This document shows, in pieces, positions 451 to 19,576 of a DNA stretch of 64,000 nucleotides. How positions within the stretch are numbered: the stretch's first letter is position 1; each line of letters starts with the position of its first letter. Under the pieces are notes generated by a model. That model was given only the letters and a program-made list of their open reading frames with translations, searched no databases and was not told where the DNA came from. Origin of the DNA: a virus. The translations under genes were made by a program, and so were the position numbers. The stretch covers positions 1 through 64,000 of the IMG/VR virus record IMGVR_UViG_3300028115_000004; one strand, 5' to 3'.

Positions 451-2940
451 ATGCCAATTGCGAAAAGTAAACCGCTTAAACTCCAAAGTCCGGATCAAGG
501 CGATTTAAAGAGATTAAGTAGTACCGAAGAAAACTATCTGTCATATCTGGTAGGAACTCATCTTGTCGAAACAAGTAGCGATATCGGTGATATTACGCTT
601 ACTTCGACAGGCAATACTTCTATTGGCTCTCATTTAGATACTTTCTTTAATCAGGCGATAGGTACACACCCAGGCTCTTCGATCACTTCAGGAACAACGG
701 AGACCACCCTCTATCAGGTTGCGGGAACTGCATCCGAAACCGATTCGGACTTCCGTAAACCAGTCTCATACTATAATCCTCCGACAGACGGGCCTACCAG
801 TCTATTGGAGGGTGTGCATGAGATGGCAGATTCAGACATGAACCGTTTGGTTGACCGTCTCAACGGCCGTATCGCACTATCTGATTATATTGGTCAATAT
901 AAACTTGGTTCTTCTTCGCCTGGCGGAGACTACACCACACACATATCTAACGTGTTCTCTGATACTCTCAATAGTGGACTTGTTGCTAATTATAACATAT
1001 ATCGTAGAACAACGCAAGCACAACCTACCAGTATTTTAGACAGTGATGGTACTGTAACCGCACTCATGTCTATTAAGAGAAGTAGCGGCCGCACAGGAAC
1101 ATATCAGGGTGTTGAACGGATGACGAACCGACAGATGAAAATCTCGTTGGGTCAACGTGCGAAGACTAGACGTGCAATTGCAGATAGTATTGGGTCTTAT
1201 CAATTAAGGTCAAGTTCTCAGGGCGCACCTCTGACGGGTTCTTGGAGAGCCGTTGGTACTGCGACTGACACTAAACAAATCTTGGAAGAGACTGCATATA
1301 CTCGTACAAGAGTTTCGACTTACAATAGAGACCGAGCTTCAACCTATACTCGTGTATCGACACGCACCAGTACTAGAGACTTTGCTGGAGATTATGTAGG
1401 TAACTACTCAAGAACGTTTGAAGGTAATTATAACAGAACCTTCGTGGGTAATTATGTAGGCGACTTCATTGGTAACTACACCCGAACCAGACTCTCCATT
1501 TATAACAGAACCAGAACTTCTGCATACACTGGTGACTATGTTGGTAACTACACTAGACTCTTTGGTGGTAACTATACCAGAGGCTTCCTTGGAGAATATG
1601 CCAGAAACTTTGCGGGTGACTACACAGGCAATTACTCTAGAAACTTCGAAGGTAATTATTCTCGTGCTTTTACTCGGACTAGAGCTTCTAATTATACCAG
1701 AACGTCAACCAGAACGTCAACCCGCACAAGAACTTCTGCATATGCTGGTGATTTTGTTGGTAACTATGGTCGTTCTTTCACAGGGAATTACAGTCGTGGT
1801 TTTGTAGGAAACTATGGTAGAACCAGAGTATCCTCTTATTCCCGAAACTTTGCAGGAAACTTTTTAGGCGAATATACACGTACATCAACACGTACATCGA
1901 CAAGAGATTTCACCAGAGATGCGATTTACCCTGACTATACTCGCACAAGTGTCCGTGATGGGTACTACTTTAGATTTGGAAACCCCGATACTTGGTCTGA
2001 AGTTCAGACCTTTATCGGCCCTGCTTATTATACGGGTAACTATACATTATCTCCTAGCTTTATAGGTAATTATACTACAGTTAGGTCTTCTGCTGTACAG
2101 TATGGTAGACTTATATTTTATATACAAGGCCCAGATAACGTAGATGCCGAAGGATTTCCTATCGGCAATATGTACAGTCGTTTTTTGTACTATGCCAGAA
2201 CAGCATTCTACACTGGTAACTATACAAGAACCAGCATTACTTCTTTTACGGGTAACTACTTAGGAGACTATGCTGGTAACTTTTTAGGTGATTACACTCG
2301 TACATCAACACGTACAAGAACGTCCGGTTATAGTAGAAACTTCGTAGGTAATTATAGTAGAACCAGAAATTCAGCATACTCACGCACCAGAAACTCAACG
2401 TACACACGTACCTCAACCCGAACAAGTTCTACAGATTTTGTTGGAGACTTTGCGGGTAACTTTGTTGGTGATTATGCTAGGGACTTTGTTGGTAACTATT
2501 CACGATCATATACCAGAACAAGAGTCTCGGCCTACACCAGAAACTCTACTCGGACACGTCCCTCTACATATTCAAGAACAAGAGTCTCTGCCTATACTCG
2601 TGGACGGGCATCCGCATACTCAAGAACCAGAATTACTGACTACTCACGTGATTTTATCGGGGATTACTCTAGAGGTTTCTTGGGGAACTACACAAGAAAC
2701 TCACTAAATACCTTTAGTCGAGATCGTGTATCTGCATACTCCAGAAATAGAGACTCCACATATGCCAGAACGAGCACACGAACAAGGGTTTCCAGTTATG
2801 CAGGAGACTTTACTGGTGATTATGCTAGAACCTTTGTCGGAAATTATTCCAGAAGTTTCTTAGGAAACTACGTTGGAACCACGATTGGTTCTTCCACTTC
2901 AGTCATTGAAACGTACACCTTGTATGTTCGATATGCATAA
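451..2940 (+). CDS. Giant tetrapeptide-repeat tail/fibre protein A (829 aa)
   Basis: Residues 1 to about 280 form a unique N-terminal region with motifs STEENYL, DITLTS.GNT, DSDMN and KLGSSSPGGDY, all shared with the next gene. From residue 284 to about 807 the chain is built of four-residue units: xGNY/xGDY/xGDF, xRxF, xRxR, xSxY and TRTS. An aromatic, Arg or Ser sits at every fourth position. A non-repeat cassette of about 90 residues (around 1951-2217, including YYFRFGNPDTW) interrupts the array. The last 20 residues (ending TYTLYV) are again shared with the paralogue. The array contains no Lys, His or Cys. I recognise no family. A surface fibre or adhesion role is inferred from its place between fibre genes. 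Ribosome site GGACGGTGG precedes the ATG. Confidence 0.85.
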   Translation: MPIAKSKPLKLQSPDQGDLKRLSSTEENYLSYLVGTHLVETSSDIGDITLTSTGNTSIGSHLDTFFNQAIGTHPGSSITSGTTETTLYQVAGTASETDSDFRKPVSYYNPPTDGPTSLLEGVHEMADSDMNRLVDRLNGRIALSDYIGQYKLGSSSPGGDYTTHISNVFSDTLNSGLVANYNIYRRTTQAQPTSILDSDGTVTALMSIKRSSGRTGTYQGVERMTNRQMKISLGQRAKTRRAIADSIGSYQLRSSSQGAPLTGSWRAVGTATDTKQILEETAYTRTRVSTYNRDRASTYTRVSTRTSTRDFAGDYVGNYSRTFEGNYNRTFVGNYVGDFIGNYTRTRLSIYNRTRTSAYTGDYVGNYTRLFGGNYTRGFLGEYARNFAGDYTGNYSRNFEGNYSRAFTRTRASNYTRTSTRTSTRTRTSAYAGDFVGNYGRSFTGNYSRGFVGNYGRTRVSSYSRNFAGNFLGEYTRTSTRTSTRDFTRDAIYPDYTRTSVRDGYYFRFGNPDTWSEVQTFIGPAYYTGNYTLSPSFIGNYTTVRSSAVQYGRLIFYIQGPDNVDAEGFPIGNMYSRFLYYARTAFYTGNYTRTSITSFTGNYLGDYAGNFLGDYTRTSTRTRTSGYSRNFVGNYSRTRNSAYSRTRNSTYTRTSTRTSSTDFVGDFAGNFVGDYARDFVGNYSRSYTRTRVSAYTRNSTRTRPSTYSRTRVSAYTRGRASAYSRTRITDYSRDFIGDYSRGFLGNYTRNSLNTFSRDRVSAYSRNRDSTYARTSTRTRVSSYAGDFTGDYARTFVGNYSRSFLGNYVGTTIGSSTSVIETYTLYVRYA
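1300..2871 (+). repeat. 12-bp-period tetrapeptide-coding array A
   Basis: Each 12-base unit codes one tetrad (for example SRTF-EGNY-NRTF-VGNY-VGDF-IGNY). The same tetrad is written with different synonymous codons in different copies: Arg as AGA, CGT or CGC; Thr as ACA, ACC, ACT or ACG. The regularity is therefore at protein level and not recent slippage of identical DNA. One non-repeat cassette at about 1951-2217 breaks the array. Confidence 0.9.
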
Positions 2941-2943
2941 ATA
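2936..2943 (+). promoter_or_regulatory. Weak late-promoter-like octamer CATAAATA
   Basis: CATAAATA differs at one base from the T4 late element TATAAATA and lies about 35 bases before the next start. It overlaps the stop of the preceding gene. It could let the second repeat gene be transcribed separately. The single mismatch makes this uncertain. Confidence 0.3.
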
Positions 2944-2977
2944 GAGGAAGAACTAACGATATGGATGAGAAATTTTA

Positions 2978-5900
2978 ATGTCTTCGAACATACCACTAAA
3001 ACTAGAAGGAACGAATGGCGATCTTCAGGAGATGACCTCTACTGAAGAGAACTATTTGGCCTATGTGGTTGGTAAGGATAACCTAACAGGAACATCCAAT
3101 GATGTGAGTGACATCACACTGACATCTGCTGGCAACACAACCATTGGTTCATATGTAGATACGTTTTACAATCAAGCGGTTGGGACACACCCTGCCTCTT
3201 CGATTACTGGCGGATCAACCACAACGACTGTTTACCAGACTGCGGGAACGAAGACACCCTCATCTGGTTCTTTGCGTCCTGTTGGTTATACGACTGTTAG
3301 TTCAACACCAAGTTTATACGAAATGAATGACTCGGACATGAATGTCCTTGCAAGAAGACTTAACTCTCGTATCGCAACTTCCGACTATCCTGGCGTATTC
3401 AAACTCGGATCGTCTTCGCCTGGCGGAGATTATGCAGCACACATTGCCGGTGTCTTTACTGATACACAGACCGATGGTACAAGTGTAACATACAACATTT
3501 ATCAGAGAAATGCAATGACTGCACCAACTACGGTCAGACCTATTGGTCTTCGTAGTGATGGTGATACTCAAGAGATGGCGGATTCAGACATCTCTGATAG
3601 TATTGGTGCGTTCGTAAGAAATATTCGTGCAACGGCTGGTGAGATTGGTTCTTATCAGTTGCGTTCTGCTTCGCAGGGTGCACCTACAGATGCTGGTACG
3701 TGGACTGCGGTAGGTACTGCCACAGACACTAAGAAAGACACAGCTGAGACATCATACACTAGAACACGTACCTCAGCTTATACTAGAAACCGTGCATCGA
3801 CATACACAAGGGATCGTGTTTCTACCTACACAAGAAACTCGACACGTACTCGCACGTCAAGTTATCTTGGGGATTATATCGGGGATTACACTCGTGGGTT
3901 TATCGGAAACTACAGCCGAGACTTTGCGGGGGATTATGTCGGGGACTATGTTGGTAACTATGCCAGAACTCGCACATCAACATACACCAGAAATAGAGTA
4001 ACCAACTTTGCCGGTAACTTTATTGGCGACTATACTCGCACACGTGTTTCATCTTATACTAGAGATCGTGTTACCAACTTCACTCGTGATCGTGTTTCTA
4101 CCTATAATAGAACAAGAACCTCTACGTATTCAAGAACTCGCATCACCGATTATGTTGGCGACTTCATTGGTAACTACACCAGAGACAGAATTTCTACCTA
4201 CTCAAGAACTCGTGTATCATCTTATGCGGGTGATTATGTAGGTAATTATAGTCGTGCATTCCTTGGGAATTACTCTAGAGATTTCGCAGGTAACTACGCA
4301 AGAGACTTTGCAGGCGACTATCTTGGTAACTATGCAAGAACTTCTACTAGGGATTCTACTCTAGGTAGAGATTCTACTTATTCAAGAACGTCAACTCGTA
4401 CAAGAGTTTCAACTTACACAAGAACACGTGCAACCAACTATCAACGCACACGTAATTCAGCTTACACAAGAAATTCGACTCGTACCAGAACTTCGACTTA
4501 TACCCGTGACAGAGTAACTAACTTTGCTGGTAACTTCGTAGGCAACTATGCGAGAAACTTTGCAGGCGACTTTGTGGGTAACTACGCCCGTGGATTCTTG
4601 GGTAACTATGTTGGTAACTTTGTGGGTAACTACACTCGCACGGGTTATTATGCCGGTGACTTTGTTGGAGAATATTCTCGTACAAGAACTGCTACGGGTG
4701 ATTATACTCGTAACAGTACACGTACAAGTACACCAACCGGAAACTATCAAAGAACCAGAACTGCAACAGGTACGTATACTCGTACCTCTACCAGAACAAG
4801 TACTCCGACTGGCACATACACTCGTACAAGAACTGCAACGGGTACGTATACTCGTGTATCGACACGTACAAGAACTGCAACGGGTGATTATACTCGTGTT
4901 AGAGCGGCAACGGGTACGTATACTCGGGCCCGTGCTGCAGGGGTTGCGTATACTCGCAACCGTGTTGGTGCGGTGGCTTATACCAGAACCAGAGTTGCTA
5001 CGACTAGTTACACAAGAACTCAGAACTACGCCCGAACACTGTATTATGTTCGGTTTAATAATAACCCTTATGAACCAGACGTTTTAACTTATACTAGTAT
5101 TGGATATTATGCACGGACAACTAGTTACAACAGATCGGCATCATATACGGGTAACTACTCTCGTAACGTAACGTATGCGGGTAACTATGCGAGAACTGTG
5201 TACTACACTGGAAACTACACGAGAACCCTGTACTACACAGGTAACTACACGAGAACTCTATACTACGCTGGTGACTTTACGGGTAACTATCAAAGAACCC
5301 TGTACTACGCTGGAAACTACACGAGAACTCTATACTACGCTGGTGACTTCGTGGGTAACTACACGAGAACTCTGTACTACGTTGGTGATTATACCCGTAC
5401 TCTATACTACGCTGGTGACTTTACAGGTAACTATACGAGAACCCTGTACTACGTTGGTGATTACGCAAGAACGTCTACACGAACATCTACACCAACATTA
5501 GATTACACACGTACTCGTGCAACTGATTATACGAGAAACAGAAGTTCAGCTTATACTCGCACATCAACTCGTACTCGTGGTTCTGCATATACCCGTGACA
5601 GAGTAACTGACTTTGCCGGTAACTTTGCGGGTAACTACGCAAGAAACTTTGCTGGTGATTACACAGGCAATTACTCTCGTGGATTCCTTGGTGATTATGT
5701 GGGTAACTTCGTAGGTAACTATGCGAGAAACTTCGCAGGCGATTATGTGGGTAACTATTCTAGAAGTTTCCTTGGCAACTTCGCAGGTAACTTTGTGGGT
5801 GAATACACAAGAACATCCCTAAGAACTCGTACTTCTTCCTACAACCGAACAAGAACTTCAGCATACACCAGAAGCAGAACATCTGCTTACGCAAGGACAT

Positions 5901-6451
5901 CTACCCGTACAAGTACGAGCGACTTCCTTGGTGAATACACTCGTGGGTTCTTGGGTAACTACACAAGAAACAGTCTTAATACATTTACTGGCAATTTCTT
6001 GGGTAACTATTCACGAGACTTTGCTGGAAACTACTCAAGAACATTCACAGGCGATTACTTGGGTAACTTCATCGGTAACTATACCCGTGGATTCCTTGGG
6101 GAGTATACTCGTGATCGTGTGACTGACTTTGCCGGTGACTTTATTGGTAACTACTCACGTGACTTTGTGGGTGAGTATACCAGAACTTCACTACGTACCT
6201 CGACCCGCACAAGACTTTCGACCTACAGTAGAACTCGTTTGTCTACTTACACACGGAATAGTACACGTGATAGTACTAGAGACTTTGCTGGAGACTATAT
6301 AGGTGATTACCAGAGAACCTTTACTGGTGATTATTCTAGAGAATTCTTGGGTAACTACTCTAGAAGTTTCTTGGGTAATTATACAGGTACAACTATTGCG
6401 GCCACTTCTAGTACGATTCAAACGTACACTCTTTACGTAAGGGCAGCTTGA
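2978..6451 (+). CDS. Giant tetrapeptide-repeat tail/fibre protein B (1157 aa)
   Basis: Paralogue of the preceding gene. The N-terminal 255 residues share its landmarks (STEENYL, DITLTSAGNT, NDSDMN, KLGSSSPGGDY, SYQLRS). Residues 261-1135 are the same tetrad array, here longer. A middle stretch (about 4640-5480) switches to six-residue units such as TATGTY and TRTLYY alternating with xGNY tetrads. A short cassette (YYVRFNNNPYEP, about 5042-5110) matches the one in protein A. The C-terminus ends TYTLYV plus three residues, like A. The array has no Lys. Function is unknown; a fibre or host-contact protein is the best guess from context. Other-frame open stretches within it are by-products of the repeat. 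Confidence 0.85.
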   Translation: MSSNIPLKLEGTNGDLQEMTSTEENYLAYVVGKDNLTGTSNDVSDITLTSAGNTTIGSYVDTFYNQAVGTHPASSITGGSTTTTVYQTAGTKTPSSGSLRPVGYTTVSSTPSLYEMNDSDMNVLARRLNSRIATSDYPGVFKLGSSSPGGDYAAHIAGVFTDTQTDGTSVTYNIYQRNAMTAPTTVRPIGLRSDGDTQEMADSDISDSIGAFVRNIRATAGEIGSYQLRSASQGAPTDAGTWTAVGTATDTKKDTAETSYTRTRTSAYTRNRASTYTRDRVSTYTRNSTRTRTSSYLGDYIGDYTRGFIGNYSRDFAGDYVGDYVGNYARTRTSTYTRNRVTNFAGNFIGDYTRTRVSSYTRDRVTNFTRDRVSTYNRTRTSTYSRTRITDYVGDFIGNYTRDRISTYSRTRVSSYAGDYVGNYSRAFLGNYSRDFAGNYARDFAGDYLGNYARTSTRDSTLGRDSTYSRTSTRTRVSTYTRTRATNYQRTRNSAYTRNSTRTRTSTYTRDRVTNFAGNFVGNYARNFAGDFVGNYARGFLGNYVGNFVGNYTRTGYYAGDFVGEYSRTRTATGDYTRNSTRTSTPTGNYQRTRTATGTYTRTSTRTSTPTGTYTRTRTATGTYTRVSTRTRTATGDYTRVRAATGTYTRARAAGVAYTRNRVGAVAYTRTRVATTSYTRTQNYARTLYYVRFNNNPYEPDVLTYTSIGYYARTTSYNRSASYTGNYSRNVTYAGNYARTVYYTGNYTRTLYYTGNYTRTLYYAGDFTGNYQRTLYYAGNYTRTLYYAGDFVGNYTRTLYYVGDYTRTLYYAGDFTGNYTRTLYYVGDYARTSTRTSTPTLDYTRTRATDYTRNRSSAYTRTSTRTRGSAYTRDRVTDFAGNFAGNYARNFAGDYTGNYSRGFLGDYVGNFVGNYARNFAGDYVGNYSRSFLGNFAGNFVGEYTRTSLRTRTSSYNRTRTSAYTRSRTSAYARTSTRTSTSDFLGEYTRGFLGNYTRNSLNTFTGNFLGNYSRDFAGNYSRTFTGDYLGNFIGNYTRGFLGEYTRDRVTDFAGDFIGNYSRDFVGEYTRTSLRTSTRTRLSTYSRTRLSTYTRNSTRDSTRDFAGDYIGDYQRTFTGDYSREFLGNYSRSFLGNYTGTTIAATSSTIQTYTLYVRAA
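3758..6382 (+). repeat. 12/18-bp-period tetrapeptide- and hexapeptide-coding array B
   Basis: About 200 units. Most are tetrads (AGDY, VGNY, SRDF, TRTR, VSTY, TRTS). In the centre hexads (TATGTY, TPTGNY, TRTLYY) alternate with tetrads. An aromatic residue closes most units. Synonymous codons vary between copies, as in array A. Confidence 0.9.
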
Positions 6452-6522: not shown

Positions 6523-6996
6523 ATGAGTTATAGAAAATGGATGGATAATGCGTTCTGGGAAAACGACGAAAAGGAAATGCTTAACTGCATCCTTGAGATG
6601 GAAGATGATGTCGGACGTGTTACCCGTCAAGTAATGAAACTTCGTAAGGCCGATGACGAAGGTAATGTAAACCCCGACTTCGCAGAGGTTGTTGAACTTC
6701 TTGGTGAATCCATCATCGATGAGAATACAACTGAACGTAACTCACGTAAGAAGCGTGAAGCAGAAGAAGAAAAACAACGTGAACTTGAACACGCCAAGGC
6801 ACGTAAATTAGAACAACTCTTTAACTACAAGCTCGAAGCGTTTGAGATTGAGGATATCAAGAACTCTAAGAATCGTCAACTCAAGTCCAAACTTCGACGT
6901 GCAAAGAATCGTGTAGAGGTAGACCTCTATGCAATTATGATTGTCATGGAAGAAATGAAGCGCAAAGAAGAGGAAGCTGCGAGTGGAGAAGAGTAA
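6523..6996 (+). CDS. Charged coiled-coil protein of unknown function
   Basis: 157 residues, strongly charged. A long Lys/Glu/Arg-rich helix (about residues 80-150, with KKREAEEEKQRELEHAKARK) should form a coiled coil. The N-terminus (SYRKWMDNAFWENDEKEML) is more globular. I recognise no domain or catalytic motif. The start is supported by TAGGAGACTGAA ahead of the ATG. It is the first gene after the sigma70-type promoter at 6448-6476 and overlaps the next gene by 14 bases, so the three genes 6523-8406 look like one small transcription unit. Function unknown. Confidence 0.8.
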   Translation: MSYRKWMDNAFWENDEKEMLNCILEMEDDVGRVTRQVMKLRKADDEGNVNPDFAEVVELLGESIIDENTTERNSRKKREAEEEKQRELEHAKARKLEQLFNYKLEAFEIEDIKNSKNRQLKSKLRRAKNRVEVDLYAIMIVMEEMKRKEEEAASGEE

Positions 6997-7711
6997 AGGT
7001 TATGTAATTGTCGCATCCAAGAAGATCAACTTTTATCGATATGCGGTCAACCTTGCAGAGTCTATTCTAGATTTTTACGAAGACGCAAAGATCACTCTAG
7101 TCTGTGAAGAGTGGATGTTTGAGGAAGTCCATCGTGAACTTTTCGATCAAGTAATCTGGTGCAACAATCACTATCGTGCGAAACTGTGGGGCATGGCAAA
7201 GTCTCCCTATGACCTCACGATGTATATCGATGCCGATATGGAATGTGAACACGGAGATATCGAACATGTCTTCGAAGGACTAGGCGACAACGATGTCATG
7301 TTCACTGCACTCACAGATGATCGTGAGTATGTTTATGCAGAACGTAGATTCGACAGTCCCGAAGGTGAACAAATCTTCACCCTCTGTGGTGGTGTCTGTC
7401 TGTACGATATGTCTAAACCTATCGTGAAAGAATTTATCTGGGACTGGTGGGAACTGACTAGACGACAGATGGATCATGAATGGTGGCCTGAAGGTTATGG
7501 TGAGAGTCTTCGTTCTTGGGATCAATTCTCCTTGTGGTGGTTGGTTGAGAAAGAACCGAAGTACAAAGACTTGAAGGTAGGAATCTTTGAAGAAGACCTC
7601 CGTTGGAATTTCTACAACGCTCTGAATGAAGCAATAACACCCGCTCCTGAATCTGGTATTGTCTTGAGACACTACTCTTCTGGTTTGGATAAAGACGGTT
7701 ATATTTTATGA
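6983..7711 (+). CDS. Glycosyltransferase-like protein (GT-A fold)
   Basis: 242 residues. The N-terminus KGYVIVASKKINFYRYAVN plus the motif MYIDADMEC (about residues 74-82) fits a nucleotide-sugar-binding GT-A fold, where a DxD motif binds metal and sugar nucleotide. Later WDQFSLWWL and VLRHYSSGL resemble acceptor-side segments of phage glycosyltransferases. The start is a GTG (6983) preceded by AGAGGAAG and overlapping the upstream gene. It overlaps the next gene in an ATGA junction. It may add a sugar to a virion protein, the cell surface or DNA; the acceptor cannot be told from sequence. Confidence 0.6.
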   Translation: MEKSKGYVIVASKKINFYRYAVNLAESILDFYEDAKITLVCEEWMFEEVHRELFDQVIWCNNHYRAKLWGMAKSPYDLTMYIDADMECEHGDIEHVFEGLGDNDVMFTALTDDREYVYAERRFDSPEGEQIFTLCGGVCLYDMSKPIVKEFIWDWWELTRRQMDHEWWPEGYGESLRSWDQFSLWWLVEKEPKYKDLKVGIFEEDLRWNFYNALNEAITPAPESGIVLRHYSSGLDKDGYIL

Positions 7712-8406
7712 GTATGAGAACTATCCCTATCAACAGTCAAGAGTTGATTGATCTACTCAATCAATATGTTGATATTGCTAATCATGAAGCATTTGAGGAT
7801 AACGTTCATGTTTGGTGTGAAAATCAGAATGATGTGGGTCACAAAGAAAAGTGGACTGGTGATGAATATCTAAACCACTTGCGATATGTCGAAGGAGAAT
7901 CCCACGAAGGATTCCCTGATCACATGGTCGCTCGTTCCTTCAAACCAAACCAACCCGAAGAAATGATCAAGGCTTTCGAAAGAGATTCCGATCCTATTGT
8001 GAGGAAAGAACTTCTAGATAGGATATATAAAGCCAATGAAGAGATGATGTTGTTTCTGGGTACGAGAAACAATGCATTATGTGCGTACTATCCCCCCGAT
8101 GGATATATCTCATGGCACACCAACTGGAATGCTCCAGGCTACAACCTGATCTTCACTTGGTCTGAGACTGGGGAAGGTTGGTTTAAATATCTCGACCCCA
8201 AGACCAACAAGGTTGTGCACTGTCAAGACCAGCCCGGATGGCAACTGAAGGCGGGATACTTTGGTCACATTAGAGAGAAGGATAAGATTGTCTACCATGC
8301 AGCCTCAACTGATTGTAGACGTATCACCGTATCCTTTATCTTCTCAGCAAATGATATGTCCCTCGATCTCCAAGAAGATGTTATTTCTGAAATAACCGGA
8401 GAATAA
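7708..8406 (+). CDS. 2-oxoglutarate/Fe(II) oxygenase-like protein (copy 1 of 3 paralogues)
   Basis: 232 residues. The core motif SWHTNWN (His137, Asn139) follows AYYPPDGYI, and the distal part YHAASTDCRRITVSF supplies His197 and Arg205. This layout matches the double-stranded beta-helix of 2-oxoglutarate oxygenases: first His near residue 137, second His about 60 residues later, then an Arg for the co-substrate. The usual HxD/E acid is an Asn here. Two paralogues (33207-33857 and 60297-60965) share the WHxN motif. It is coupled by an ATGA overlap to the glycosyltransferase-like gene. Substrate unknown. Confidence 0.7.
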   Translation: MSMRTIPINSQELIDLLNQYVDIANHEAFEDNVHVWCENQNDVGHKEKWTGDEYLNHLRYVEGESHEGFPDHMVARSFKPNQPEEMIKAFERDSDPIVRKELLDRIYKANEEMMLFLGTRNNALCAYYPPDGYISWHTNWNAPGYNLIFTWSETGEGWFKYLDPKTNKVVHCQDQPGWQLKAGYFGHIREKDKIVYHAASTDCRRITVSFIFSANDMSLDLQEDVISEITGE

Positions 8407-8474: not shown

Positions 8475-8834
8475 ATGGCGACTTACGAAGAACTACTCAT
8501 AGATCAAGGCGCAGACGTTGCGATTGAGATCGAACTGGTTGAACAGGACGGGTCTAAGAAAGACCTGACTGGATTTTCTGCTGCCGCAAAAATGAAAAGA
8601 AGTTTCAACTCCACGGACAGTGATGAGATCGTAGATTTCACCGCTGTCATTGGCGATCCTGCTGCGGCCGGAGTTGTTGTCCTCTCCCTCACAAACACCC
8701 AAACCGATGCGCTGAATACTCGTGGAAGATATTTTTATGATGCAGAGATTTCTTTCCAAGACTCCGATGGTAATACTATTATCGAAAGAGTACTGGAAGG
8801 CAAAGTAAAAGTATCACCTTCTGTGACAAGGTAA
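8475..8834 (+). CDS. Small beta-rich virion-associated protein
   Basis: 119 residues. It begins MATYEELLIDQGADVAIEI and continues with alternating beta-type segments (VVLSLTNTQTDAL, GRYFYDAEIS, ERVLEGKVKVSPSVTR). This resembles the small immunoglobulin-like baseplate or fibre-attachment proteins (BppU N-terminal type) of tailed phages. That likeness is of pattern only. A consensus late promoter lies 37 bases upstream and the gene is followed after 4 bases by another fibre-type gene, so a structural role is likely. Confidence 0.6.
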   Translation: MATYEELLIDQGADVAIEIELVEQDGSKKDLTGFSAAAKMKRSFNSTDSDEIVDFTAVIGDPAAAGVVVLSLTNTQTDALNTRGRYFYDAEISFQDSDGNTIIERVLEGKVKVSPSVTR

Positions 8835-17881: not shown

Positions 17882-19576
17882 ATGGCAACAAATCCGTATA
17901 TCAGTCAATCGGTAAAATCTGAACAGAACTTATACGAAGACATAGTAATTGAGTCTCTCAAGTTCTACGGACAGGATGTGTATTACATCCCCCGTGAGAT
18001 TGTCAACAAAGACCCCATCTTCCTAGACGATGTACCTTCACGTTTCAGTGATGCGTACAAGATCGAAATGTATATTGAGAACACCGAAGGTTTCGACGGT
18101 GAGGGTGACTTGTTCACTAAATTCGGTATTGAGTTACGTGACCAAGCTACCTTCGTAGTTGCCCGTAGACGTTGGAAACATCTAATCGGTAACTACTTGG
18201 ATGAGAAGAAATTCCGTCCACGTGAAGGAGATGTTATCTTCCTTCCCATGTCTAACTCTATCTTCCAGATTCAAAAGGTGGAGACAGAGACTCCGTTCTA
18301 TCAACTCAGCAATCTACCTACGTTCAGACTTCAGGCAGAACTCTTCGAATATAACGACGAAGACTTTGATACTGGTATCGATCAGGTTGATGAGATTGAA
18401 TATGAAGGTGCGTATCAGTATAAGATTACTATGCGACCTAATGATACCACAGGTTCTACCGCTGGGGCAACATCAACAATTAATGAACAAGGTACGATAA
18501 CTTCACTCACCTTGACCAACGCTGGCCGTGGATATGAGACGGCACCAACACTTAGTTACTCTGACTTCACTGAAGCGGAGACGAAGAAGTTTGGTCTGAA
18601 CTCTATTAACATGAACAACGCACAAGGTAGAGAGGGAGAATTCCTTTACACCAGTAACAACGGTGTTGCCGAGGTGTTCCTCCTTCTCAATAATTTCCCG
18701 ACTACCCAAGGTTCTTTGTTCCTACATGGTGAAGATTCTGCACAGTATATGTGGGGTGTCGATGCTAGTGGTGGTTTGGTCTATCAAACAATAGGAATGA
18801 GTTCTCCCAAGGTTGTGCCTGGCGCAACTGTTGCACGTGGTGCATGGCAGCACATTGCCATTGCACAAGACAGTGACAATCTGTCTGTCTATTATAATGG
18901 TGTGAAGGTTCTGGATTCGGATGCGCCTGTCACCGCACAGTTTGCGGGTTCAAGTGGGTTCTCTGTTGGTGCAACATCTGCACGTACATTCAACGGTGTG
19001 GATTGGGAAGCTACAAGAGGATACCTCGACGAAATCAGATTCCGTTCGGGTGTGAGAAACACTCTTATCGGTGACTCTGATATGACTGTACCGACTGAAG
19101 CATATGATTCAGATGCATCTACTATTCTTCTTGAACATGCAGACGGTACTGCGCCTACTATCACAACAACAATTGATGCAACCACAGGATCGGTCACAGG
19201 GTTTACTATTACGGATGGTGGTTTCCTCTATCAAGAGGCTCCGACTATTACGATCACACCGCCTGTGACAGGAGGTGACTTTGTGATTGGAGAGATTGTT
19301 ACTCAAACCAACTCTACATACACAATGAAGGGCGAAGTCACAGACTGGTCAGATTCAGATAGAGTTTTACAATTAGCACACTCTGGTGCAACGGATGGAG
19401 ATTTCCACGAGTTTGGAGTCAACCGCAAGATCGTTGGTGCGAATGCTAATTGGGTTCCTTCATTGGTAGAAGAACTACAGGAGATTCAAGTCTCTGCACA
19501 GAATGTCACCTTCAATAACTTCGAATCTGACTTCTTAGACTTCTCCGAATCAAATCCCTTTGGAGACATGGAATAA
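17882..19576 (+). CDS. 14: Neck protein gp14 with an inserted LamG-like domain
   Basis: 564 residues, about twice T4 gp14. Residues 1-175 match the gp14 type (NPYISQSVKSEQNLYEDIVIESLKFYGQD is split here across two typical segments, then RRRWKHLIGNYLDEKKFRP). The C-terminus (EELQEIQVSAQNVTFNNFESDF) is also gp14-like. Between them lies an insertion of about 300 residues: a Gly/Thr-rich repeat (APTLSYSDF, APTITITPP) flanking a domain with RGAWQHIAIAQDSDNLSVYYNG and RGYLDEIRFRSGVRN, which fits a concanavalin/LamG jelly-roll. The insertion may project from the neck and bind glycans. Role of the insertion is inferred. Confidence 0.8.
   Translation: MATNPYISQSVKSEQNLYEDIVIESLKFYGQDVYYIPREIVNKDPIFLDDVPSRFSDAYKIEMYIENTEGFDGEGDLFTKFGIELRDQATFVVARRRWKHLIGNYLDEKKFRPREGDVIFLPMSNSIFQIQKVETETPFYQLSNLPTFRLQAELFEYNDEDFDTGIDQVDEIEYEGAYQYKITMRPNDTTGSTAGATSTINEQGTITSLTLTNAGRGYETAPTLSYSDFTEAETKKFGLNSINMNNAQGREGEFLYTSNNGVAEVFLLLNNFPTTQGSLFLHGEDSAQYMWGVDASGGLVYQTIGMSSPKVVPGATVARGAWQHIAIAQDSDNLSVYYNGVKVLDSDAPVTAQFAGSSGFSVGATSARTFNGVDWEATRGYLDEIRFRSGVRNTLIGDSDMTVPTEAYDSDASTILLEHADGTAPTITTTIDATTGSVTGFTITDGGFLYQEAPTITITPPVTGGDFVIGEIVTQTNSTYTMKGEVTDWSDSDRVLQLAHSGATDGDFHEFGVNRKIVGANANWVPSLVEELQEIQVSAQNVTFNNFESDFLDFSESNPFGDME

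Follow-up and report, generated by a model that had tools for sequence, protein, structure and literature searches.

The first 64,000 nucleotides of the 115,859-base virus record IMGVR_UViG_3300028115_000004 (IMG/VR), the whole stretch analyzed and hereafter the window, encode two paralogous giant proteins, A and B, whose N-terminal regions are 58% identical and whose repeat arrays cover about residues 284–806 (A) and 259–1134 (B). We consider it very probable that A and B are giant self-complementary hairpin subunits of a tail fibre, each running out and back with an apical tip. The C-terminal half of each array faces the N-terminal half in a single antiparallel register, the numbers of opposed residues summing to 1092 in A and 1397 in B. 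This register, the complementarity of the arms, the mirrored insertions and deletions (indels), and the position of the apex can be read directly from the sequences. The source appears to be a marine-type virus of bacteria, and relatives of the two proteins, cited below by L numbers, were found in 55 viral contigs. The two open reading frames (ORFs) are laid out as follows.

451–2940, + strand: ORF A, putative hairpin fibre protein A (829 amino acids)
451–1299, + strand: N-terminal domain of A (residues 1–283), from AlphaFold2
1297–1881, + strand: outgoing arm of A, paired part (residues 283–477); 98-pair segment, 0/97 forbidden pairs
1882–2292, + strand: apex region of A (residues 478–614), which holds the non-repeat island; geometric apex at residue 546
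2293–2877, + strand: returning arm of A, paired part (residues 615–809), from register and pair scores
2878–2937, + strand: C-terminal strand of A (ending ETYTLYVRYA), predicted by AlphaFold2 to dock onto the N-terminal domain
2978–6451, + strand: ORF B, putative hairpin fibre protein B, paralogue of A (1157 amino acids)
2978–3742, + strand: N-terminal domain of B (residues 1–255), from alignments
3743–5029, + strand: outgoing arm of B (residues 256–684), with six-residue units xAxGxY near the apex; 224-pair segment
5030–5113, + strand: apex island of B (residues 685–712, beginning YVRFNNNPYEPDVLTYTSIGYY); apex at 698.5, centre at 0.494 of the array
5114–6400, + strand: returning arm of B (residues 713–1141), with six-residue units xRxLYY opposite xAxGxY
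6401–6448, + strand: C-terminal strand of B (ending TIQTYTLYVRAA)

The Two Arms Are Complementary at One Antiparallel Register

We took the two ends of each array as anchors and compared residues at equal distance x from the N-side and the C-side anchor, restricting the comparison to the face that carries Arg, Gly, and aromatic residues. Pair scores came from a leave-group-out matrix (trained on the other groups) applied without gaps over the full length, and the statistics cover 22 non-redundant arrays, A included, with 241 shifts tried. For x = 10–50, the mutual information between the arms reaches its maximum of 1.02 bits at one antiparallel register (median, 0.35), and in each further interval up to 250 the peak falls there or one step away. 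Register 0 is the best of the 241 shifts in both A (0.607; runner-up, 0.009) and B (0.805; runner-up, −0.072). It comes out on top in 17 of the 22 arrays, among them L038 with 500 face pairs, and the arms so matched are 271 residues long in A, 446 in B, and about 1000 in L038.

Along B, the pair score is positive all the way from base to apex. With the held-out matrix, A yields a 98-pair segment scoring 76.7 (next self-segment, 30.4), and B yields one unbroken 224-pair segment scoring 146.8 (next best, 27.9). Shuffling whole units, which retains the local units, gives z values of 3.9 for A and 11.2 for B, and 0 of 2000 shuffles scored as high.

These results bear on a rival architecture, a solenoid or triple beta-helix that passes once from base to tip and takes its order from local tetrad rules. 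Such a fibre would fit the strong local grammar described below, and the T4 gp5 needle, whose triple beta-helix runs one way and has octad repeats, is a precedent for it (PMC3004832). Yet it predicts no single antiparallel register, no mirrored indels, no midpoint island, and no docked C-terminal strand, and the parallel orientation of the arms scores far below zero; we regard a single-pass fibre as very improbable. The arrays do resemble gp5, a baseplate beta fibre, in having an octad periodicity (PMC3004832), but the gp5 chain runs one way with intertwined strands, whereas the arms here would be antiparallel and complementary. A search for a solenoid by lag mutual information gave an excess at several long lags in data full of orthologues, and was hence unusable.

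The exact partner within the antiparallel register is slightly less certain. A conditional model that includes same-strand neighbours places the direct partner at register 0, with a second, diagonal partner at −2. Changes on both arms exceed expectation 2.36-fold at register −2 and 1.99-fold at 0, with values of 0.9–1.9 elsewhere. Because this excess is highest at −2 and 0, some room is left for a two-residue shift; the partner register is best taken as 0, from which the true one may differ by that much.

Several observations weigh against the hairpin. Five of the 22 arrays (L001, L028_3251, L020_5411, L030_5046, and L043_7974) have no global peak at register 0, and L028_109 peaks there by a small margin. 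One-arm inserts, described below, account for the deviation of L028_3251 and of the inner part of L001; L020_5411 and L043_7974 are off register without explanation. Complementary stretches can also come from shared grammar or shared ancestry. A null that pairs N arms with C arms from different groups reaches scores of up to 81, as high as the 76.7 of A's own segment, and the case for A therefore rests on the fixed register, the unit shuffles, and the orthologues. Finally, AlphaFold2 confidence is poor: pLDDT is 22–35 over most of A's array, and for B's apex it is 36, which makes that prediction uninformative. Given this low confidence within the array, the hairpin rests on sequence statistics.

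L020:5411–7972 and L043:7974–10466 are paralogues with the same N-terminal domain and with arrays off the hairpin register. A second tetrad-rich family (L017:3003–7433, L022:5544–9047, L023:2989–7377, L041:3019–7380, and L049:395–4978) lies upstream; its N-terminal domain is different and its repeats are looser. Its five members (L017_3003, L022_5544, L023_2989, L041_3019, and L049_395) gave no clear single hairpin register.

A Pairing Code Underlies the Tetrad Grammar

Opposed face residues are strongly selective. Arg stands opposite Tyr in 390 pairs, compared with about 153 expected (x = 10–120); the other opposed residues are Arg with Gly, Phe with Ser, and Gly with large residues or Ser. 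Tyr–Tyr, Phe–Phe, Arg–Arg, and Gly–Gly are nearly absent across the arms of the family arrays. In A and B themselves, forbidden pairs (aromatic–aromatic, Arg–Arg, and Gly–Gly) number 0 of 97 and 0 of 220, where 24.4 and 49.2, respectively, are expected in sum. The selectivity extends to whole tetrads: xRxR lies opposite xGxY 366 times and opposite other classed tetrads 3 times, x[ST]xY has xRxF as its partner, and xRxS has xGx[YF]. Placement of xRxF opposite xRxR or xRxS occurs once, and the six-residue xRxLYY units most often face Y-G-A or Y-G-R.

A preliminary description of the window had reported succession rules among tetrads along the chain, and these hold with few exceptions both in the window and in a family sample of 12,610 in-phase tetrads from distinct tetrad-rich ORFs (window plus relatives). 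An xRxR tetrad is directly followed by x[STA]x[YF] in 18/18 cases in A, 28/28 in B, and 97.3% of 2235 in the family. Likewise, xGxY directly follows xRxF in 16/18 (A), 20/20 (B), and 90.5% (family), and xRxS or xRxR directly follows xRxS in 8/12 (A), 10/12 (B), and 91% (family). This grammar arises because xRxR–x[ST]xY on one arm complements xRxF–xGNY on the other, so that two of the reported succession rules read as one rule viewed from two arms. The preliminary description had missed this apparent origin of the rules in the cross-strand complementarity of a giant hairpin.

The same description held the repeats to be strict four-residue units. They are not strictly so, since six-residue units (TATGTY and TRTLYY) occur in the middle of B. 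Counted over whole ORFs, Arg–Arg spacings up to 16 are even in 130 of 133 cases in B and 76 of 82 in A, and the two faces of the strand are preserved because unit lengths are almost always even. The evidence supports the earlier picture of an extended strand, one face of which carries Arg and aromatic residues and the other Thr and Asn. The arrays of A and B contain 76 and 129 Arg, respectively, and no Lys, His, or Cys, and the 50,440 residues of the family tetrad arrays include 7,282 Arg, 0 Lys, and 5 His.

About one-third of the array consists of Arg and aromatic residues, which together with the low AlphaFold2 confidence could suggest a disordered version of the Tyr/Arg sticker polymer raised at the outset, either condensing or adhering to the surface of the host. 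Such a polymer has no need for positional complementarity, even units, mirrored indels, or the retention of 91–92% of face residues among B orthologues. Since order along the chain is position-specific, with arms complementary at one register and indels mirrored between them, the sticker polymer is not supported and seems to us hardly credible.

The reading frame is under selection at the protein level: in the B orthologues, 91–92% of the face residues are identical, yet where a residue is unchanged its codon differs in about half of the cases. One B orthologue (L006:8001–11514) lies in two overlapping frames, probably through a frameshift or an assembly error. As a source of the array order, recent DNA duplication is rejected for A and supported in part for B: identical octads share codons at 0.34 in A, compared with 0.37 predicted from codon usage, and at 0.58 in B, compared with 0.40, which points to partial DNA relatedness.

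Ladders of alternating Arg and aromatic side chains stacked across strands are familiar from thrombospondin type 1 repeats and the WSXWS motif. Those ladders consist of a few residues on a small domain and use Trp rather than Tyr or Phe, whereas the arrays described here would form hundreds of rungs.

Indels Are Mirrored between the Arms around a Midpoint Apex

Orthologous arrays differ in length by matched pieces on the two arms. Relative to L010, B has indels of −24/−24 and +12/+12, and L014 differs from L049 by +124/+124. Between L038 and L049, indels of −8, −12, −188 (in sum), −160, and −12 are mirrored on both arms; between L020 and L043, both arms show indels of −8, −6, −20, and −36, and the sums in between agree or almost agree. 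The indels that separate L025 from L049 are mirrored as well. In more distant pairs, which align poorly, the mean same-offset fraction is 0.39.

The point of symmetry is a non-repeat island, centred at 0.49–0.51 in most arrays and located mid-array in A and B. This apex island is variable, and in the relatives of L020 it is merely GGGKSGDA or GGGKGGDA.

Islands on one arm appear to shift the register by their own length. The register of L028_3251 jumps by exactly 41 at three points that coincide with short islands in its returning arm; in L030_7992, a register step of 229 lies beside a 233-residue island. In two very long relatives, L001 and L050, one arm is interrupted by several globular inserts, and the hairpin is clear only in its inner part.

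These two proteins (L001:19944–30035 and L050:4298–16000) are 3.3–3.9 thousand residues long. One of their globular inserts reads like a concanavalin A/LamG-type domain, and the inserts could possibly be side branches or lectins along the fibre.

The C-Terminal Strand Is Predicted to Return to the N-Terminal Domain

AlphaFold2 was run on A as a monomer with its relatives (19 sequences). The model is confident for residues 1–283 (pLDDT mostly 70–95) and for the last 25 residues. Helices are predicted at 24–40, 127–143, and 226–242 of the N-terminal domain, and strands at 265–291 and 799–827, with pLDDT 96 for the final block. The outer ends of these two strands sum to 265 + 827 = 1092, identical to the register sum obtained from sequence.

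By our reading of the alignment, the N-terminal domain of A would consist of three similar helix-plus-hairpin modules, the third of which has its hairpin interrupted by the entire array (GTWxAVGTATDT–array–ETYTLYVRxA). Because the array sits inside this hairpin, the chain must come back. Sequence and prediction together place the C-terminus at the domain where the shaft starts; this return, and the identity of the non-repeat island as the apex, had also escaped the preliminary description.

A Proposed Fold and Its Relation to Known Fibres

We propose that one beta-hairpin of a small N-terminal domain has had its loop enlarged into a giant pair of strands that run out and back. In this model, the chain would exit the domain as an extended strand, run to the apex, turn in the non-repeat island, and return antiparallel to itself, its C-terminal strand completing the domain from which it started. 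Face side chains would form the rungs, with Arg against Tyr or Gly, Phe against Ser, and Gly against a large residue or Ser, and the Arg–aromatic ladder would keep arms of about 270 to 1000 residues in register. A six-stranded needle made of three intertwined chains is the probable form in the virion, with the apex island as its putative receptor-binding tip; these fibre, trimer, and receptor roles we infer.

Pairing may occur within one chain or between subunits, and the sequence is compatible with either. The T4 long tail fibre protein gp37 is instructive here. Its collar comprises residues 811–881 plus 1010–1026, its elongated needle residues 882–1009, and it ends in a receptor-binding tip; Gly921 packs on Phe970 of another subunit (PMC6957217). 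By our own arithmetic on these numbers, 921 + 970 = 882 + 1009, so this contact has the same sum as the needle ends. That the hairpin topology is right and the arms pair with other subunits of the same homotrimer makes all the same predictions as our best explanation, the partner chain excepted, and the Gly921–Phe970 contact joins subunits. We consider inter-subunit pairing a serious possibility, though the less probable one. Pairing of A with B over the full length is excluded because their arms are unequal (271 and 446 residues).

The likeness to gp37 lies in the out-and-back topology and in a Gly of one strand set against a Phe of another. It extends to the return of the C-terminus to the domain at the start of the shaft, as indicated by the AlphaFold2 strands and a register that is constant from base to apex. 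The differences are considerable: gp37 has about 64 residues per arm, compared with 271 (A), 446 (B), and about 1000 (L038); it has histidine iron sites, whereas the arrays of A and B have 0 His; the collar fold that it shares with gp12, gp10, and gp11 was found here neither by Foldseek (E ≤ 0.001) nor with the N-terminal profile; neither sequence nor Foldseek gave a match; and the passages of PMC6957217 consulted report no residue code for it. Lacking His sites and any fold or sequence match, A and B are not members of the gp37 family. By analogy, the fibre probably works like the gp37 needle at several-fold greater length. The T4 needle measures about 150 by 25 angstrom (PMC3004832), and arm lengths scaled to it by residues would be 63–89 nm for A and 104–147 nm for B, so that the putative tip would stand roughly 60–90 nm (A) and 105–150 nm (B) away from the base.

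The searches agree with the earlier impression that the arrays belong to no named repeat family. Pfam gave no match for A or B at E ≤ 1 and none for the N-terminal domain; a PDB sequence search with B found no match, and a profile of the N-terminal domain found no credible one in the PDB. The single PHROG match, for B, is weak (phrog_23074, unknown function, E 0.0025). Foldseek with the model of A, N-terminal domain included, returned nothing at E ≤ 0.001 from the PDB and BFVD. Among tetrad-bearing proteins, the S-RIM2 cyanophage structural protein SWTG_00067 shares an xGNx tetrad rhythm through its TGNV/TGNL repeats, which is the reason for a weak match to it, but it has no Arg/Tyr, another gene position, and another N-terminus. 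A kinship of L028 with this protein was rejected, only the xGN rhythm being in common. At L063:2426–8164, an S-RIM2 structural protein carries TGNV/TGNL tetrads in its C-terminal part, again without Arg/Tyr.

On balance we lean toward regarding the hairpin as a fold class of its own, in which antiparallel strands of hundreds to a thousand residues recognize each other by a residue code (Arg–Tyr, Arg–Gly, Phe–Ser, and Gly–large) and change through compensatory substitutions and paired insertions, as RNA stems do, to give a length-adjustable fibre. A literature search for the motif strings and for the hairpin-code idea found no paper containing those strings and no earlier description of such a strict pairing code. 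If correct, this would be a protein analogue of complementary strands: a natural fibre with a pairing code that can be read and a length that changes when matched pieces are inserted on both arms. The fold and register of a large uncharacterized phage protein family would become predictable from sequence, and the likely receptor-binding tip could be located in each member. The arrays would also serve as a template for designing fibres of a chosen length and provide a direct test of Arg–aromatic ladders as a structural principle.

Gene Neighborhood

The genes around A and B in the window are as follows.

1–435, + strand: upstream ORF, open at the window start; weak PHROG tail protein match (E 0.032)
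6523–6996, + strand: 157-aa conserved neighbour directly downstream (45 loci)
6983–7711, + strand: 242-aa conserved neighbour (45 loci); PF00535 at E 0.024, below the cut-off
7708–8406, + strand: 232-aa conserved neighbour (41 loci)
8475–8834, + strand: LtfC-like / L-shaped tail fibre assembly protein (39 loci); phrog_3304 at E 3.6e-13

The sole annotated phage record with a relative is OQ984149.1, Phage C48C1 (Kyanoviridae). Its homologue, CDS0201, is a 3348-aa hypothetical protein with a tail assembly chaperone on one side and an L-shaped tail fibre assembly protein three genes away on the other; the upstream ORF of the window occupies the same position as that annotated chaperone. The four downstream genes keep constant order and distance in about 40 loci, and farther downstream lie a structural protein, a head–tail adaptor, a neck protein, and a tail sheath stabiliser. 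The setting is a T4-like structural cluster beside tail-fibre assembly genes, and it supports reading A and B as fibre-like virion proteins, as first suggested. Since the C48C1 homologue is annotated merely as hypothetical, the hairpin protein might instead be a decoration filament of the capsid, neck, or another part. Its location between the chaperone position and the LtfC-like genes in about 40 loci speaks against this, and we think a role other than tail fibre unlikely.

Among 50,697 phage records, the 157-, 242-, and 232-aa neighbours occur in C48C1 only, and the three-gene set at 6523–8406 is a candidate dedicated assembly or modification module. The 157-aa protein is a probable fibre accessory, the 242-aa protein is weakly glycosyltransferase-like, and the 232-aa protein, with no family match, reads like a 2OG-Fe(II) oxygenase by its His/Arg pattern. 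All of these neighbours may help the Thr/Ser/Tyr-rich fibre to fold or may modify it. The LtfC-like protein matches PF23926 at E 5e-4 with 21 bits (cut-off, 27).

With regard to the host, the virus record contains no psbA. Bacterial genomes yielded no relative. At 17882–19576 of the window, a neck protein (PF11649) carries a Laminin_G_3/concanavalin A-like domain at residues 266–391, an unusual-looking fusion.

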